In this document: positions 1,604 to 9,682 of the stretch, piece by piece
Layout: the number at the start of each line of letters is the position of its first letter
Numbering within the stretch: position 1 is the first letter of the stretch
NCBI GenBank assembly: GCA_937868035.1
Contig: CALMLK010000245.1
Coordinates: 1 to 10,363, forward strand
From: an uncultured Alphaproteobacteria bacterium
Lineage (GTDB): Bacteria > Pseudomonadota > Alphaproteobacteria > Rhizobiales > Aestuariivirgaceae
Direction: 5' to 3'
Length of the DNA stretch: 10,363 bases
The notes under the pieces: generated by a model
Told to the model about the DNA's origin: nothing
The model's input: the letters and a program-made list of their open reading frames with translations, nothing else
Database searches by the model: none
Made by a program: the position numbers and the translations under genes

Positions 1604-2719
<1,116 letters not shown>

Positions 2720-2752: not shown

Positions 2753-2799
2753 GAGTCCTCGGAGTCAGCGCGTGAATCGAAACCGCTTTTTATGGTTAA
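2753..2799 (-). promoter_or_regulatory. Putative ccrM control region: CtrA half-site plus three GANTC sites
   Basis: Read on the minus strand towards ccrM, this contains TTAACCAT (2792-2799), GATTC (2774-2778), GACTC (2762-2766) and GACTC (2753-2757), ending 42 bp before the ccrM ATG. TTAACCAT is the known CtrA half-site of alphaproteobacteria, and GANTC is the sequence CcrM itself methylates. In Caulobacter, ccrM transcription is activated by CtrA and lowered when promoter GANTC sites are fully methylated. The same arrangement here suggests that feedback loop. The half-site overlaps the TAA stop of rnhB (2796-2798), so control elements are embedded in the end of the upstream gene. A full TTAA-N7-TTAA site is not seen, and the exact -35/-10 elements are uncertain. 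Confidence 0.6.
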
Positions 2800-3404
2800 C
2801 AACCGAGCAGCAGGCGGATGGGCGCGAAGCTGCGGCGGTGTTCGGCGCAGGGGCCGTGACGTGACAGTGCCTGCTGGTGGCCCTCCGTGCCGTAGCCCTT
2901 GTGGGCGGCGAAGCCATAGTCCGGGTACTGACGATCGAGATCGTGCATCAGCCGGTCGCGCGTCACCTTGGCGATGATGGATGCGGCCGCGATGGAAAGG
3001 CTCTTGGCGTCACCCTCGACAATGGTTTCGCAGCGGCAGGAGAGCGGCGGCGCGCGGTTGCCGTCGATGAGGGCCAGATGGGGTGCGGTGGCGAGGGATT
3101 GCACGGCCTCGCGCATCGCCTCGTAGGTGGCTTGCAGGATATTGATCTCGTCAATCCGCGCCGCGCTGATGATGCCAACGCCGACGATGGCCGCCTGCAT
3201 GATCGGCCCGTAGAGGGCCTCGCGCTTTGCTTCCGTCAGCTTCTTGGAGTCGTTCAGCCCCGGCGGAATGTTGCGGGAACTGAGGATGACGGCCGCCGCG
3301 ACCACGGGACCTGCCCAGGGCCCGCGTCCCGCTTCGTCCACGCCGCACACGATCGTGCCATTCATGGCAAGTTCCGTCTCGCGGTCGAAGGAAGGGAAGA
3401 GCAT
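2796..3404 (-). CDS. rnhB: Ribonuclease HII
   Basis: RNase HII cleaves RNA in RNA-DNA hybrids and starts removal of ribonucleotides misincorporated in DNA. The 202-residue product has the signature VDEAGRGPWAGP with catalytic D23 and E24. The other two carboxylates are D114 in LIDGN and D132 in VEGDAKS, followed by the conserved SIIAKVTRDR. The 18-residue spacing of D114 and D132 matches D108/D126 of the E. coli enzyme. Two starts are possible. The ATG at 3404 gives 202 residues. The ATG at 3365 starts 9 residues before the catalytic Asp and has a better-placed GGAA, so it may be the true start. It lies 85 bp upstream of ccrM on the same strand, and its stop codon is shared with the CtrA-like half-site. 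A 125-bp gap separates it from the upstream radical SAM gene. Confidence 0.96.
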   Translation of the reverse strand: MLFPSFDRETELAMNGTIVCGVDEAGRGPWAGPVVAAAVILSSRNIPPGLNDSKKLTEAKREALYGPIMQAAIVGVGIISAARIDEINILQATYEAMREAVQSLATAPHLALIDGNRAPPLSCRCETIVEGDAKSLSIAAASIIAKVTRDRLMHDLDRQYPDYGFAAHKGYGTEGHQQALSRHGPCAEHRRSFAPIRLLLGC

Positions 3405-3519
3405 TCCGCCCCATAGCCTTCGCCGTTGAGTCGCTCCAAATCCGCCGCGGGGTTATCCGCAACCATATGCCGGCCCGTGGACAGTCTGCGGCGGCGCGGG
3501 GGAGAGGGTCAAGAGGTGG

Positions 3520-3550
3520 AAAAAGTCCGCTAGAACAGCATCATCTGCTC
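3520..3550 (-). terminator. Weak terminator-like hairpin at end of radical SAM gene
   Basis: On the minus strand GAGCAG (3550-3545) can pair with CTGTTC (3538-3533), giving a 6-bp stem with one G-T pair and a 6-base loop. It spans the last codons of the gene. A run of five T follows (3524-3520), but it is 8 bases away from the stem, longer than in a good intrinsic terminator. It could separate the radical SAM transcript from rnhB, but the evidence is thin. Confidence 0.25.
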
Positions 3551-4666
3551 GCCTCTTTGGAGCGGACGGCGGAAAAGGTCGGTGCGCAGCTTGATGCGGT
3601 TGGCGTTGAGGCCGAGGCGCTGGGCCGCCAGCTGGAAGCGGCGGCCGATCATCCAGGCCATGGGGCCGGTGCCGGTCATGCGGCTGCCGAAATTGGGATC
3701 GTTCTCGCGGCCACCGCGCACGTCCTTCACATGGCTCATCACCTTGGCGGCCCGGTCAGGGTGTTCGCGCTGCAGCCAGTCCTTGAATATCTCCTTCACC
3801 TCGAAGGGCAGGCGCAGCATGGTGTAGCCCGCCTCCGCAGCGCCGGCATTGCGCGCCGCCTTCAGGATGTTCTCGATCTCGTGGTCATTGAGGCCGGGAA
3901 TGATGGGACCCATCATTACCACGGTGCGCACGCCGGCCTTGGCCAGCATCTCGATCGCGGCGAGGCGCTTTGCCGGTGTCGAGGCGCGGGGCTCCATGCT
4001 GCGGGCGAGCTTTGGATCGAGGGTGGTGATGGAGAGCGCCACCTTCACCAGATCCCGTTCCGCCATCGGTTTCAGAAGGTCGAGGTCGCGCGTGACGTTG
4101 GCTGATTTCGTCACGATGCCGAAAGGGTGCTGGAACTCGGCCAGCACTTCAATCACGCCCCGAGTGATGCGGTAGCTGCGTTCAATCGGCTGATAGGGAT
4201 CAGTGTTGGCCCCCAGCGCAATGGTGGCCGGCACGTAGCTTTGCGCCGACAGTTCCGCGCGCAGCAATTCCGCCGCGTTGGGCTTGATGAAGAGCTTGCT
4301 CTCGAAGTCCAGCCCCGGCGACAGGCCCATGTAGGCGTGGGCCGGTCTGGCATAGCAATAGACGCAGCCGTGTTCACAGCCGCGATAGGGATTGATGGAG
4401 CGGTCGAAGGAAATGTCCGGCGACTGGTTGCGCGTGATGATTGCCTTCGGCGTCTCGGTGAATATTTCTGTGCGCAGCTTCGGAATGTCGGACAGCGAGT
4501 CCCAGCCGTCATCCACGTAGGTTTCGGTATAGTTCTCGAAGCGTCCGGCAGGATTGATGCCGGCACCACGGCCACGTTCCATCTGCGGCAGGCGGGTCAT
4601 CTTCCCCGTGCCCAGGGCATCAACGGCGAGGCCCGGAGAGGGGCGCATGTCCATCAGCGTTGGCAT
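3530..4666 (-). CDS. PA0069-family radical SAM protein (spore-photolyase-like)
   Basis: This is a radical S-adenosylmethionine protein of the group often annotated as 'DNA repair photolyase' or PA0069-like, related to spore photoproduct lyase. The 4Fe-4S-binding motif is RGCEHGCVYCYARP, a CX3CX2C with cysteines at residues 97, 101 and 104 from the ATG at 4666. The N-terminal ~90 residues carry the family's RGRGAGINPAGRFE and INPYRGC segments. Later segments (LGANTDPYQPIE, TKSANVTRDLDLL, MGPIIPGLNDHEI) form the radical SAM barrel. The product is 378 residues, normal for the family. A TTG at 4672 would add two residues, and no good ribosome-binding site favours either. The true substrate is unknown for the family. 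A perfect GAAC-N7-GAAC repeat 26 bases upstream hints at SOS control, which would fit a DNA-damage role; that is inference. Confidence 0.9.
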   Translation of the reverse strand: MPTLMDMRPSPGLAVDALGTGKMTRLPQMERGRGAGINPAGRFENYTETYVDDGWDSLSDIPKLRTEIFTETPKAIITRNQSPDISFDRSINPYRGCEHGCVYCYARPAHAYMGLSPGLDFESKLFIKPNAAELLRAELSAQSYVPATIALGANTDPYQPIERSYRITRGVIEVLAEFQHPFGIVTKSANVTRDLDLLKPMAERDLVKVALSITTLDPKLARSMEPRASTPAKRLAAIEMLAKAGVRTVVMMGPIIPGLNDHEIENILKAARNAGAAEAGYTMLRLPFEVKEIFKDWLQREHPDRAAKVMSHVKDVRGGRENDPNFGSRMTGTGPMAWMIGRRFQLAAQRLGLNANRIKLRTDLFRRPLQRGEQMMLF

Positions 4667-4691
4667 GTTCAAATAGGTAGTCTGTTACCAT

Positions 4692-4706
4692 GAACAAATC
4701 AAGAAC
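4692..4706 (-). promoter_or_regulatory. Candidate LexA (SOS) box, GTTC-N7-GTTC
   Basis: The plus strand reads GAAC AAATCAA GAAC, which on the minus strand is GTTC TTGATTT GTTC. This matches exactly the direct-repeat LexA box described for alphaproteobacteria. It lies 25 bases before the ATG of the minus-strand radical SAM gene (4666) and 46 bases before the plus-strand transporter start (4753), so it could control either or both. On the minus strand the TTGATT inside the spacer could also act as a -35 element, which would let LexA block the promoter. The radical SAM gene is the closer target. No binding data are available, and a chance match is possible. Confidence 0.5.
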
Positions 4707-4752
4707 AATCTTGCGCCGCGCGGCGAATCCGGGTTAGCCCCCGCACACCATC

Positions 4753-5622
4753 ATGATGCAACCCCGCAACCTCCTGCTCGCGCTCCTGCCACCGCTCTGC
4801 TGGGGAACCGGTTTCACGTTTTCCAAGCCGGCGGTGAGTCATTTCCAGCCGTTGTTCATGATGTACATGGTCTACGGCAGCATCGCGCTCGTGATGCTGC
4901 TCACGCTTCGCGACATGCCGAAGACGCCGTGGCCGAAGCTCCTCATCATCTCGGCCTGCTCAGTCACCATCCAGGGTGCGCTGCTCTTTTACGCCATGGC
5001 CTATGTGGACGCCACAACGGCCAACCTTGTGCTGCAAACGCAGGTTCCGATTGCCATCCTGTTCGGCTGGCTTCTGCTGGGCGAAACACTTGATGCGCGG
5101 AAGATCATCGGCACCGCGATTGCGCTGACCGGCGTCGCCATCGTCATTGGCCTGCCGCAGGAGAGGCCGCCGCTCCTTGCCGTGGCGGTGGTAATCGTGG
5201 CGGGCGGGGTCTGGGCGCTGGGGCAGGTGCTGACACGGCTGTGGTCGCAGGATTCAGGCTTGCTGGTGTTGAAGGCCAATGCGCTGTTCGGTGTGCCGCA
5301 ATTGCTGCTGGCGACGCTGCTCCTGGAGAGCGGACAGTGGCAGTCACTTGCAACGGCGACGCCGCTGCAATGGTTCTATCTCGCGTTCGTCGGCATCATC
5401 GGTTTCTATGTGGCCTATGTGGCGTGGTTCACCTTGCTGAAGCGTGTGCGCGTGGACGAGGCGACGCCGTTCGTGTTGCTGATGACACCAATCGGCGTGC
5501 TCACCGCGGTGCTGCTGCTCGGCGAACGGTTGCAATGGCCGCAAGTGGTGGGCGGTTCGATCCTGCTTCTGGGGCTTGCGGTGGTGAGCGGCGTACTGAA
5601 CCTGCCGTTGCGGCGCGCCTGA
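4753..5622 (+). CDS. EamA/DMT-family membrane transporter
   Basis: This is a 289-residue inner-membrane protein of the drug/metabolite transporter superfamily. It has two EamA repeats and about ten hydrophobic helices, roughly at 5-25, 33-53, 63-85, 88-110, 116-135, 140-160, 169-190, 205-228, 238-256 and 262-283. The first repeat ends with the typical sequence FGWLLLGETLDARKIIGTAIALTGV and the second with LLLGERLQWPQVVGGSILLLG, the conserved 'GE' helix ends. The N-terminal CWGTGFTFSKP is also typical. The substrate (amino acid, metabolite or drug) cannot be read from sequence. Two tandem ATGs at 4753 and 4756 start the gene. It is divergent from the radical SAM gene, sharing an 86-bp region with a candidate LexA box, and convergent with the sulfotransferase only 9 bp away, with no obvious terminator between. 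Confidence 0.92.
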   Translation: MMQPRNLLLALLPPLCWGTGFTFSKPAVSHFQPLFMMYMVYGSIALVMLLTLRDMPKTPWPKLLIISACSVTIQGALLFYAMAYVDATTANLVLQTQVPIAILFGWLLLGETLDARKIIGTAIALTGVAIVIGLPQERPPLLAVAVVIVAGGVWALGQVLTRLWSQDSGLLVLKANALFGVPQLLLATLLLESGQWQSLATATPLQWFYLAFVGIIGFYVAYVAWFTLLKRVRVDEATPFVLLMTPIGVLTAVLLLGERLQWPQVVGGSILLLGLAVVSGVLNLPLRRA

Positions 5623-6402: not shown

Positions 6403-6954
6403 TCAGCTTTTCGTGCGGCGCAGGTGCTCGTCGAGGCGGGGCATGATCTCGATGAAGTTGCAGGGGTGGTGACGGTAGTCGAGCTGATGCACGAGGATTT
6501 CATCCCACGCGTCCTTGCAGGCGCCGGGCGAACCAGGGAGGCAGAAGACATAGGTGCCGTTCATCACGCCCGCCGTGGCGCGGGACTGGACGGTGGAGGT
6601 GTGAATCTTCTGGAACGAGACCATGTGAAAGACGACGCTGAAGCCTTCGATCTCCTTGTCGAAGAGCGGGCGCAGGGCTTCCACGGTCACGTCGCGGCCG
6701 GTCAGCCCGGTGCCGCCGGTGGTGATGACGACGTCGATGTCGTCGCGCTGCGTCAGGCCCCGTACGGCGGCGCGAATGTCTTCGATCTCGTCCTTCACAA
6801 TGAGACGGTCGGCCAACATGTGACCCGCACCCGTGACGCGATCGGCGAGGGTCTGGCCTGACTTGTCATTTTCCAGTGTGCGGGTGTCGGAGATGGTGAT
6901 GACTGCGATGTTGGCGGGCAGGAAATCGCGGGGTGCGTTGCTGATCTTGTTCAT
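6403..6954 (-). CDS. moaB: Molybdenum cofactor biosynthesis protein MoaB/Mog family
   Basis: This 183-residue protein belongs to the MoaB/MogA family, whose members bind molybdopterin and, in MogA-type enzymes, adenylate it before molybdenum insertion. The N-terminal IAVITISDTRT (16-26), the central VVITTGGTGLTGRDVT (75-90) and the later FCLPGSPGACKDAWDEIL are hallmark family segments. T79-G80-G81-T82-G83 is the molybdopterin-binding loop. The ATG at 6954 is the right start: family homology begins a few residues later. Its first bases overlap the stop of the upstream UDG-like gene as ATGA, a standard arrangement for translational coupling. Much longer in-frame extension upstream exists but runs antiparallel to none of the family and lies inside the UDG-like gene. 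No other molybdenum cofactor gene is in the window. Confidence 0.94.
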   Translation of the reverse strand: MNKISNAPRDFLPANIAVITISDTRTLENDKSGQTLADRVTGAGHMLADRLIVKDEIEDIRAAVRGLTQRDDIDVVITTGGTGLTGRDVTVEALRPLFDKEIEGFSVVFHMVSFQKIHTSTVQSRATAGVMNGTYVFCLPGSPGACKDAWDEILVHQLDYRHHPCNFIEIMPRLDEHLRRTKS

Positions 6955-7778
6955 GTTGATGCGTCCAGTTTGGCCCGGAACGCCAGGAGGTCGCGCCAGG
7001 CCAGCCGTTTCAGGGCAGGTGATTTCAGGAGGGATTCGGGATGGAAGGTCGAGAGCAATGGTACGTTGCCCGCCGTCAGCCAGGTGCCGCGCTGGCGCTG
7101 GATCGATTCCGCGCCACCCGCCAGCCATTGTCCGGGCAACCCCCCGAAGGCCAGAATGATCTGCGGCTGCAGCAGTGCCACGGCGCGCTCGGCGAAGGGC
7201 AGGATCATCCGGCATTCAAGTTCGGTGGGCGGACGGTTGCCGGGCGGACGCCAGGGAAGGAAACTGAGCAGCGAGACAGGCACGCCTGCCTCACCGCCCA
7301 ATCCGATGGCGGCCAGCATGCGCTGGAACAGGACCTCGTGCTTGTCGGCGAAAATCCTGCCGCTGCGGTCTTCCTCGCTGCGCGGTCTGTCGCACATCAC
7401 GAGAATGCGGGCGCCCGGCGTTGCCTCGGCGAATCAGAGGCGCGAGGCGGTTCGCCGCAAGGGGTGGGCGTGGAACGTGTCGAGCAATTCCGCAAGTGCT
7501 GCCAGCGAGGGTGCCTGGCGCGCGGCGGCGTGAACCTGCTCCATGGATGCCTCTGCTTCCATCGCGGCGCGGGGCTGCGGTGGGGCGGGAGAGGAAGGTG
7601 CGCTTGGCCGTGGCGGGGCGGCCCGTGGCGGTGCTGCGGCCACCACGGGTGGCGGCGCGGCAAAGCGGTTGACCGGGTCGGCGCCGAGAATTTCGTCCGC
7701 CCCCATCTCGCGCAGCCACAGCAATGCCGCCGCGGCTTCGGCGGCGGAGAGGGATGCGGCGTTTGGACTTTGGCTCAT
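6951..7778 (-). pseudogene. Uracil-DNA glycosylase-like gene interrupted by an in-frame TGA
   Basis: Both parts of this gene lie in one frame, separated only by a TGA at 7434-7436 (codon 115 of 275). The first part (ATG at 7778, 114 residues) has the N-terminal ALLWLREMGADEILGADPVNRFA segment, a Pro/Ala-rich linker at about 43-70, and LRRTASRL. The second part continues FAEATPGARILVMCDRPRSEED and on to PWRPPGNRPPT and STFHPESLLKSPALKRLAWRDL. These match the layout of the family 4/5-type UDGs of alphaproteobacteria, which remove uracil from DNA. Oddly, the catalytic GEAPG motif is CDRPR here and the PFVG segment is IFAD. The histidine of the HPxxLL motif is kept. No other stop or frameshift occurs, and the stop codon overlaps the moaB start. 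It may be a recent pseudogene, a noncatalytic paralogue with a new stop, or a sequence error. Restart at GTG 7400 or ATG 7397 would yield only the C-terminal part. Confidence 0.78.
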
Positions 7779-7853: not shown

Positions 7854-9506
7854 ATGGTGAGCGATATTCAGCGTGAAGCAATGGAATATGATGTCGTGAT
7901 CGTGGGCGCAGGCCCCGCCGGCCTTTCCGCTGCCATCCGCATCAAGCAGATTTCCCCCGACACGACCGTTTGCGTGCTGGAGAAGGGTTCGGAGGTGGGG
8001 GCGCACATCCTTTCGGGTGCCGTGATTGATCCCATTGCGCTCAACGAGCTCATTCCGGACTGGAAGGAAAAGGGAGCGCCGCTCAATACGCCGGTCATTG
8101 AGGACCGCTTTTATGTGCTGGGCAAGGGTGGGTCGCTGCGCATTCCCAACGCGATGATGCCGCCGCTCATGGACAATCACGGCAACTACGCCGTGTCGCT
8201 GGGCAATGTGTGCCGCTGGCTCGGACAACAGGCGGAAGGCCTGGGCGTAGAAATCTATCCGGGCTTCGCGGCCTCGGAAGTCCTGTACCGTGAGGACGGT
8301 TCGGTGCGCGGCGTCGTCGCGGGTGTCATGGGCATCGCCAAGGATGGCAGCCACAAGCCGGATTACCAGCCCGGCATGGAACTCACCGGCAAATATGTGC
8401 TCATCGCCGAAGGCGTTCGTGGTTCGCTCGCCAAGGAAATCATTGCCCGGTTCAACCTGCAGGAAGGCCGGCAGCCCGCCAAGTTCGGCATCGGCATGAA
8501 GGAACTGTGGGAGGTCAAGCCCGAGAACCACAAGCAGGGGCAGGTCACGCACACCATGGGTTGGCCGCTCGGCATGAAGGCCGGTGGCGGCAGCTTCATG
8601 TATCACCTTGAAGACAACCTGGTGTCGATCGGGTTCGTGGTGCATCTCAATTATGAGAACCCGCACCTCTTCCCCTACATGGAGTTCCAGCGCTTCAAGC
8701 ATCACCCGCTGATCGCGCCTGTTCTCGAAGGTGGGCGCCGCGTGGCCTATGGTGCGCGCGCCATCACCGAAGGTGGGCTGCAGTCGGTGCCGAAGCTCTA
8801 TTTCCCTGGTGGTGCGCTGATCGGTTGTTCGGCAGGCTTCGTGAACGTGCCGCGCATCAAAGGCAGCCACAACGCCATGAAGACCGGCATGCTGGCGGCT
8901 GAGGCGGTGGTTGCCGCCCTCGCAGCGGGCCGTGAGGCAGATGAACTCCCCGAATATGAAGACGCATTCCGCAACTCGTGGGTCTACGCAGATCTGGCCA
9001 GGGTCAAGAATGTCAAGCCCATGTGGTCCAAGTTGGGGCTCTTGGGCGGCGTGGCGCTGGGAGCCGCCGACATGTGGATGCGGACGCTGTTCGGCTTTGG
9101 CCTCGGCACCTGGAAGCATGGCAAGCCCGACTATGCGACGCTCAAGCCTGCCTCGGCCTGCAAGAAGATCGACTATCCCAAGCCAGATGGCATCTTGTCG
9201 TTTGACCGTCTGACCAACGTCGCCTTCTCCGCCACCAACCACGAGGAAGACCAGCTCGTACACCTGCGGTTGCGTGATCCTGCCATTCCGGTGCAGCAGA
9301 ACCTGCCGCTCTATGATGAGCCGGCCCAGCGCTACTGCCCGGCGGCGGTCTATGAAATCGTTAACGAAGAGGGCCACCCGCCGCGCTTCCAGATCAATCA
9401 CCAGAACTGCGTGCACTGCAAGACCTGCGACATCAAGGATCCGGCGCAAAACATCACATGGACCGTGCCGCAGGGCGGCGAAGGGCCGAATTATCCCAAT
9501 ATGTAA
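7854..9506 (+). CDS. etfQO: Electron transfer flavoprotein-ubiquinone oxidoreductase (ETF-QO)
   Basis: ETF-QO takes electrons from reduced electron transfer flavoprotein, supplied by acyl-CoA and other dehydrogenases, and passes them to ubiquinone at the inner membrane. The 550-residue product has the usual family length. The FAD-binding VIVGAGPAGLSAA starts the protein (GxGxxG at 18-23). A central block (GMKELWEV, MGWPLGMKAGGGSFMYHL, IGCSAGFVNVPRIKGSHNAMKTGMLAAEA) contains the conserved flavin and membrane/quinone regions. The 4Fe-4S cluster ligands are C495, C519, C522 and C525, in YCPAAVYE and NCVHCKTCDIKDP, close to the human enzyme. Start at ATG 7854 is preceded by GAGG at short spacing; an ATG at 7881 is less likely. 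It stands alone on its strand; no etfA/etfB genes are in the window. Confidence 0.97.
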   Translation: MVSDIQREAMEYDVVIVGAGPAGLSAAIRIKQISPDTTVCVLEKGSEVGAHILSGAVIDPIALNELIPDWKEKGAPLNTPVIEDRFYVLGKGGSLRIPNAMMPPLMDNHGNYAVSLGNVCRWLGQQAEGLGVEIYPGFAASEVLYREDGSVRGVVAGVMGIAKDGSHKPDYQPGMELTGKYVLIAEGVRGSLAKEIIARFNLQEGRQPAKFGIGMKELWEVKPENHKQGQVTHTMGWPLGMKAGGGSFMYHLEDNLVSIGFVVHLNYENPHLFPYMEFQRFKHHPLIAPVLEGGRRVAYGARAITEGGLQSVPKLYFPGGALIGCSAGFVNVPRIKGSHNAMKTGMLAAEAVVAALAAGREADELPEYEDAFRNSWVYADLARVKNVKPMWSKLGLLGGVALGAADMWMRTLFGFGLGTWKHGKPDYATLKPASACKKIDYPKPDGILSFDRLTNVAFSATNHEEDQLVHLRLRDPAIPVQQNLPLYDEPAQRYCPAAVYEIVNEEGHPPRFQINHQNCVHCKTCDIKDPAQNITWTVPQGGEGPNYPNM

Positions 9507-9682
9507 GGTGGGGACGCGAGGGGAGCTTTCCCTGGTGTTCGCTATAGGTTCTCTGACAGTTTGAATTAACGCTATTTGAAATTGCGGCTTAACCAGCGCG
9601 GAAACACTAAAAGTTGAGCCATGGTGGCAAGGAGTTGTTGAACTCTGTGGACTAACCCTGACCCATTCGAAGGGGAGAAGTC
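9507..9682 (+). other. Intergenic region between ETF-QO and TadG-like gene
   Basis: No gene is seen here. After the ETF-QO stop, AGGGGA at 9519-9524 can pair with TTTCCCT up to 9533 as a small hairpin, but no T-run follows. Further on lie a GTTC-N7-GTTC repeat (9537-9551), TTAA at 9566-9569 and TTAACCAG at 9589-9596 (7 of 8 to the CtrA half-site). A strong ribosome-binding sequence, AGGGGAGAAG, is at 9671-9680, two bases before the ATG at 9683. The promoter of the next gene is probably in this stretch, but no clear -35/-10 pair stands out. Confidence 0.5.
9537..9551 (+). promoter_or_regulatory. Second GTTC-N7-GTTC repeat, possible LexA box
   Basis: The sequence reads GTTC GCTATAG GTTC, a perfect match to the alphaproteobacterial LexA direct repeat, on the same strand as the downstream TadG-like gene. 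It lies 131 bases before that gene's ATG and 30 bases after the ETF-QO stop. The distance and the lack of a clear promoter next to it make this weaker than the site at 4692-4706. Confidence 0.3.

Follow-up and report, generated by a model that had tools for sequence, protein, structure and literature searches.

A LexA operator, GTTCTTGATTTGTTC, very probably controls a radical SAM gene of the PA0069 family in the window (the whole stretch of DNA analysed, 10,363 nucleotides), as judged from comparative sequence analysis. The initial annotation had proposed this control, and the proposal is strongly supported by conservation of the box among alphaproteobacteria and by the presence, upstream of the same family, of the LexA motif of gamma- and betaproteobacteria in genomes outside the class. 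In most of the sampled alphaproteobacteria, this poorly characterised family is very likely a permanent part of the SOS regulon, and very likely also in many genomes beyond the class, there with a different operator. The features discussed are listed in Table 1.

Table 1. Predicted genes and sites in the window, with one related box elsewhere in the assembly
Feature	Position	Strand	Remarks
CcrM-like adenine DNA methyltransferase	1604..2719	-	626 bits, under curated cut-off 830
rnhB, ribonuclease HII	2796..3404	-	Conserved downstream neighbour
PA0069-family radical SAM protein, 378 aa	3530..4666	-	NF033668, PF04055
Candidate -10, TACCTA	4674..4679	-	17 bases past TTGATT; poor match in this genome
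LexA operator (SOS box), predicted	4692..4706	-	GTTCTTGATTTGTTC; exact match; kept upstream of orthologues
Candidate -35, TTGATT	4697..4702	-	Inside box spacer; predicted
Divergent EamA-family transporter	4753..5622	+	PF00892; intergenic region common with radical SAM gene; outside conserved unit
Second perfect GTTC-N7-GTTC	9537..9551	+	Intergenic, upstream of TadE/G-like gene
GTTCTGTTTTTGTTC box	L112 1510-1524 (contig C308:3909-3923)	Opposite strand	At TIGR03916 gene

The exact GTTC-N7-GTTC repeat described in the initial annotation on the minus strand was recovered as GTTCTTGATTTGTTC, and the distance of 25 bases given there between the box and the radical SAM start codon (ATG, position 4666) is correct; 46 bases separate the box from the ATG of the EamA gene (position 4753). 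The annotation had also estimated ~0.25 perfect matches by chance in the window, in line with the 0.23 expected from 200 shuffles, whereas two are present. Across the whole assembly (2.64 Mb, 79% complete), GTTC-N7-GTTC has 56 matches versus 62 for the reversed pattern, i.e., no enrichment. Given 0.23 matches expected against two found and the lack of genome-wide enrichment, the match by itself says little, and it is conservation that carries the case. The second perfect match lies between a gene for a FAD-dependent oxidoreductase-like protein (7854-9506) and the TadE/G-like gene. It was present in none of six orthologous upstream regions, and regulation of the Tad-like gene through it was rejected for that reason; it is probably a chance occurrence. 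An in silico LexA site at a Tad pilus gene of Dinoroseobacter shibae is described in a passage of PMC6473078.

Comparison of the upstream regions of related genes, which had been named in the initial annotation as a check on the site, showed that the box is kept. For one sample, the best 80 were taken out of 588 relatives confirmed in named genomes; judged by title, these are mainly Hyphomicrobiales, with Mesorhizobium and Bradyrhizobium heavily represented. Between 350 bases upstream and 30 bases inside the match start, a perfect box was found in 77 of these 80 orthologues, against 3 for the reversed pattern and 0 to 4 for each of the other spacings (3 to 13). Among the three loci with no box in this range, L072 has a perfect box farther upstream, and L039 and L077 have one-mismatch sites. 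A second sample consisted of 40 alphaproteobacterial genomes of 40 different families, taken from 200 listed among the 385 that match over the cut-off. Here the perfect box was present in 35 of 40 genomes (controls, 0 to 2 of 40). Of the remaining five, three (L197, L200, and L207) keep the TTG spacer and the usual position in a site with one mismatch, L213 has a one-mismatch site ~50 bases before the profile start, and L222 has a one-mismatch site on the opposite strand only. Within the same genus, 9 of 10 other loci reaching the gene start (excluding the fragment L358) carry the perfect box, and the box was found within 200 bases in five of six loci from other genera of the same order.

Outside the class, 20 genomes (13 families) were fetched from the 65 phylum members among the matches listed; we infer that they are gamma- and betaproteobacteria. 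The gamma/betaproteobacterial LexA motif CTGT-N8-ACAG was identified upstream of the same family in 13 of the 20, including L243, in which the stretch is shortened by a contig end. The alphaproteobacterial box occurred in none of these 20 genomes, nor did spacings of 7 and 9 or the scrambled pattern TGTC-N8-GACA, and the reversed alphaproteobacterial pattern occurred in one. In the other seven (L236 to L238, L246, and L248 to L250), CTGT-N8-ACAG is missing even with one mismatch allowed, and these orthologues may use another LexA motif or may have no such control. The case for LexA as the regulator is strongest here, in that one family has a different LexA operator in each of the two groups. 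The same two-operator argument, for alpha- versus betaproteobacteria, is made in a passage of PMC3323433. LexA itself scored over the cut-off in all 30 sampled genomes that carry the family and in 20 of 39 genomes without it, the latter being the listed part of a longer no-match list and many of them small; as genome size confounds the comparison, the co-occurrence is at most consistent with a LexA link. PA0069 itself is said to belong to the Pseudomonas aeruginosa regulon described by Cirz in 2006.

The arrangement of the promoter is regular across the family. In 121 sequences (the window, the 80 from named genomes, and the 40 of different families), the box is on the strand of the gene only in 110, on the other strand only in 3, and on both in 1, and no box was found within 400 bases in 7. 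In the 111 promoters with a same-strand box, the spacer starts with TTG in 84, TA is found at box offset 26 or 27 in 73%, and the first in-frame ATG or GTG follows 23 to 25 bases past the box in 70. The best -10 falls at offsets 26 to 28 in 61%, whereas shuffling of the downstream sequence gives 18%; in either case, tied scores favour offset 27. The corresponding counts in the different-family subset are 23 of 34 for TTG, 19 of 34 for TA, and 23 of 34 for a start at 23 to 26 bases. The TTG spacer occurs in none of 12 recA boxes and none of 28 lexA boxes. The latter come from 26 of 31 lexA loci. A perfect recA box is present in only 12 of 29 alphaproteobacterial recA loci, which shows that members of the regulon can be missed when the exact pattern is used to find them. 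These regularities suggest a promoter in which a -35 element of the form TTGNNN is embedded in the LexA box, with the -10 element 16 to 17 bases farther on and the start codon soon after; the radical SAM mRNA is probably leaderless or nearly so. In the window the -10 is a poor match, and a strict consensus scan of positions 3350 to 4800 returned no sigma-70 promoter, so the anatomy is proposed at the level of the family. LexA bound at the operator would cover the -35 element and block RNA polymerase, repressing the radical SAM gene. Upon damage, activated RecA would bring about the self-cleavage of LexA, and the gene would be transcribed. Both LexA binding and damage induction at this promoter are predictions from sequence.

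The home genome encodes lexA (182 bits, over the cut-off), with the box GTTCCGCACCTGTTC located 50 to 55 bases upstream; for recA, a 30-bit match below the cut-off was all that was found in the assembly, itself 79% complete. The sequence around each of the 54 sites lying elsewhere in the assembly was examined. A crude frame picker assigned 41 of all 56 sites to the interior of long frames, in some cases wrongly. Boxes lie one base before an ATG of the DNA polymerase IV gene (dinB), 104 bases before the start of the single-stranded DNA-binding protein gene (ssb), and 17 bases before the start of an ImuA-like gene (34 bits; cut-off, 150). The genome-wide scan proposed in the initial annotation yielded no enrichment of the pattern but did place boxes at lexA and at the ImuA-like gene. 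In addition, the perfect box GTTCTGTTTTTGTTC abuts the ATG of a TIGR03916 (rSAM_link_UDG) gene, scoring 566 bits and encoding a putative DNA modification/repair radical SAM protein, which would be a second radical SAM gene of the SOS type in this genome. SOS control of a COG1573-COG4277 gene pair is mentioned in a passage of PMC8565304. The TTG spacer is absent from the home boxes at lexA, dinB, ssb, the ImuA-like gene, and the TIGR03916 gene. A class II ribonucleotide reductase frame also has, close to its end, two perfect boxes 33 bases apart (L126 1553-1600; C431:4052-4099).

Of the 136 loci with enough sequence, 103 have rnhB in the same orientation no more than 900 bases downstream of the radical SAM gene; a same-strand ccrM lies downstream in 24 of 138 loci, as counted with flanks of 3000 or 1500 bases. 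In the same-genus loci, rnhB was found in 9 of 10, ccrM in 8 of 10, and a divergent EamA gene in 7 of 10. One reading, which we regard as doubtful, is that the LexA promoter drives a radical SAM-rnhB(-ccrM) unit in which read-through raises RNase HII, and perhaps CcrM, upon damage; RNase HII would then clear ribonucleotides left by damage-induced synthesis. The frequent linkage of rnhB fits such a unit, as do the absence of a LexA box from the gap before rnhB in all 103 loci, the absence of a terminator-like site from window positions 3350 to 4800, and the short gap (40 bases at most) in 5 of the 103 loci. However, the median gap is ~202 bases if rnhB is taken to begin at the nearest start codon and 93 bases if at the earliest possible one, which leaves room for a separate promoter, and ccrM is present in a minority of loci only. 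With no LexA box in the gap, read-through into rnhB would be possible. As a tight operon partner, rnhB was rejected because most gaps are long. Three GANTC sites lie between rnhB and the CcrM-like gene (positions 2720 to 2795). GANTC is the target of CcrM, and the three sites suggest methylation-sensitive control of ccrM, which they fit instead of the proposed unit.

It was also suggested in the initial annotation that the EamA transporter could be damage induced. Such joint control, in which the same box would regulate the divergent gene and the exporter would be induced together with the radical SAM gene, is improbable. It would accord with the divergent EamA genes of the same genus, in which the matched region starts ~40 to 100 bases from the box, and LexA located between two promoters could repress both. 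In other genera, however, none of 138 loci has EamA next to the box while the box persists, which rules EamA out as a conserved SOS partner beyond the genus. Moreover, the orientation, spacer, and spacing of the box track the radical SAM start, whereas the distance to EamA varies among relatives. The suggestion is thus unsupported, the promoter signals facing the radical SAM gene. Farther along the window, a minus-strand frame at positions 6951 to 7778 is interrupted by one in-frame stop. Its 6951-7400 piece resembles a family-4 uracil-DNA glycosylase (79 bits; cut-off, 125), and its 7434-7778 piece has no family match; the break could reflect gene decay or a mistake in sequencing or assembly.

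The assignment of the radical SAM protein to the PA0069 type holds: it scored 545 bits with NF033668 (cut-off, 360) and covers the profile completely (1 to 348 of 348). The [4Fe-4S] cluster motif CX3CX2C corresponds to C97-x3-C101-x2-C104, and these three residues are invariant in 48 aligned sequences, among which no further invariant cysteine was found. They are the only cysteines of the window protein, so there is no fourth. At position 146, cysteine is present in 15 of the 48, mostly in relatives from outside the class, and proline in the window protein and in 27 of the 48; at position 157, five of the 48 have cysteine. Judged from this alignment, Cys146 may mark a functional split inside the family. 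The predicted fold is closest to that of spore photoproduct lyase (SPL) by a clear margin, with 15% identity in the structural match; sequence-based searches against solved structures gave no alignment of SPL with the window protein.

The resemblance to photolyase-like enzymes noted in the initial annotation therefore stands as regards the fold but not as regards the fourth cysteine, which is absent from the window protein; in Bacillus subtilis SPL this residue (C141) is essential, according to a passage of PMC3742179. It is very unlikely that the enzyme is a true SPL, repairing the thymine photoproduct under SOS control. The fold agrees with that reading, and so do the names given to the gene in parts of two papers, splB/photolyase in PMC3323433 and SplB-like photolyase in PMC3765255. 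Cys146, where it occurs, is 42 residues past the last cluster cysteine, which resembles the distance from C98 to C141 in the lyase. Yet the window protein reached only 19 bits with the SPL model TIGR04070 (cut-off, 400), its structural identity to SPL is low, its cysteines are confined to the cluster, and it has proline at position 146. In addition, when CYTDP of L381, an SPL-like protein from a different genome that scores 282 bits with TIGR04070 (cut-off, 400), was aligned by eye to (T/A)NTDP, its cysteine fell on position 153, at which none of the 48 sequences has cysteine; an hhalign comparison with L381 covered residues 183 to 297 only and not the region of position 153.

A shared fold does not imply a shared function, and the lack of the catalytic cysteine of the lyase suggests that the label "photolyase/SplB" overstates what is known. 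The target of the SOS-controlled product would most likely be a damaged base or nucleotide in DNA, processed without the fourth cysteine on which the lyase relies. A DNA lesion is a reasonably likely substrate for the PA0069-family enzyme. More tentatively, we propose that the family is a widespread SOS-induced radical SAM DNA repair enzyme distinct from SPL, with an SPL-like fold, no obligatory thiol hydrogen donor, independence of light, and a target lesion that has no assigned enzyme so far, and that LexA control was kept across the change of operator from GTTC-N7-GTTC to CTGT-N8-ACAG. The question of the substrate becomes directly testable, through the lesion that accumulates, or the agent that kills, upon deletion of the gene. 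That GTTCTTGATTTGTTC is a mere chance match is extremely unlikely: the home genome has no more matches to its pattern than to the reversed one, but a single orientation and a similar spacing are kept before orthologues that are 44 to 65% identical, and nearly all of the same-genus loci have the perfect box.

Previous work bears on this regulatory link. In a passage of PMC3323433 (2012), LexA regulation of splB is predicted in alpha- and betaproteobacteria and is stated not to have been observed in gammaproteobacteria. Part of PMC8565304 gives splB (COG1533) as SOS regulated in several species, including Bacteroidetes, and cites Cirz 2006 on P. aeruginosa. A radical SAM protein appears within the LexA regulons of Gram-positive bacteria and Balneolaeota in a passage of PMC7739468, and a Streptomyces venezuelae LexA table in PMC9380542, as excerpted, includes one radical SAM gene among those that have a LexA box. 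The passages of PMC1839093 and PMC12700426 concerning Caulobacter do not mention the radical SAM gene. Our literature search found no paper joining PA0069 with LexA or Rv2578c with DNA damage, and the passages it returned held nothing on an overlap of the -35 element with the LexA box or on the cysteines of the PA0069 family. The link between this family and DNA damage put forward in the initial annotation is accordingly supported but is not new, having been predicted in the 2012 passage.

Compared with known systems, the site has the same GTTC-N7-GTTC pattern as the alphaproteobacterial LexA regulon, to which the home boxes at lexA, dinB, ssb, and the imuA-like gene also correspond. However, it differs in the TTG spacer and the fixed orientation, features that neither the sampled recA and lexA boxes nor the other home boxes named above display. 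The SOS-regulated "splB" (COG1533) of the relevant passages of PMC3323433 and PMC8565304 is likewise a SplB-like radical SAM gene with LexA sites, and the alphaproteobacterial "splB" of PMC3323433 is very probably the same gene as here. Whereas those passages label it as photolyase/SplB, the protein studied here belongs to NF033668 and lacks the fourth cysteine. It is likewise set apart from spore photoproduct lyase proper (TIGR04070; PDB 4fhc to 4fhg) by the low identity, the low model score, and the three-cysteine complement described above. The next best NCBIfam model is that of the Rv2578c family (NF038135), with 232 bits, below its cut-off of 430, and rSAM_link_UDG (TIGR03916) is a separate family, neither protein matching the model of the other. 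The regulatory link is thus known in kind; to it the present analysis adds a class-wide count of boxes at NF033668 genes, a count of the other operator outside the class, the regularity of the promoter arrangement, and the tally of cysteines.
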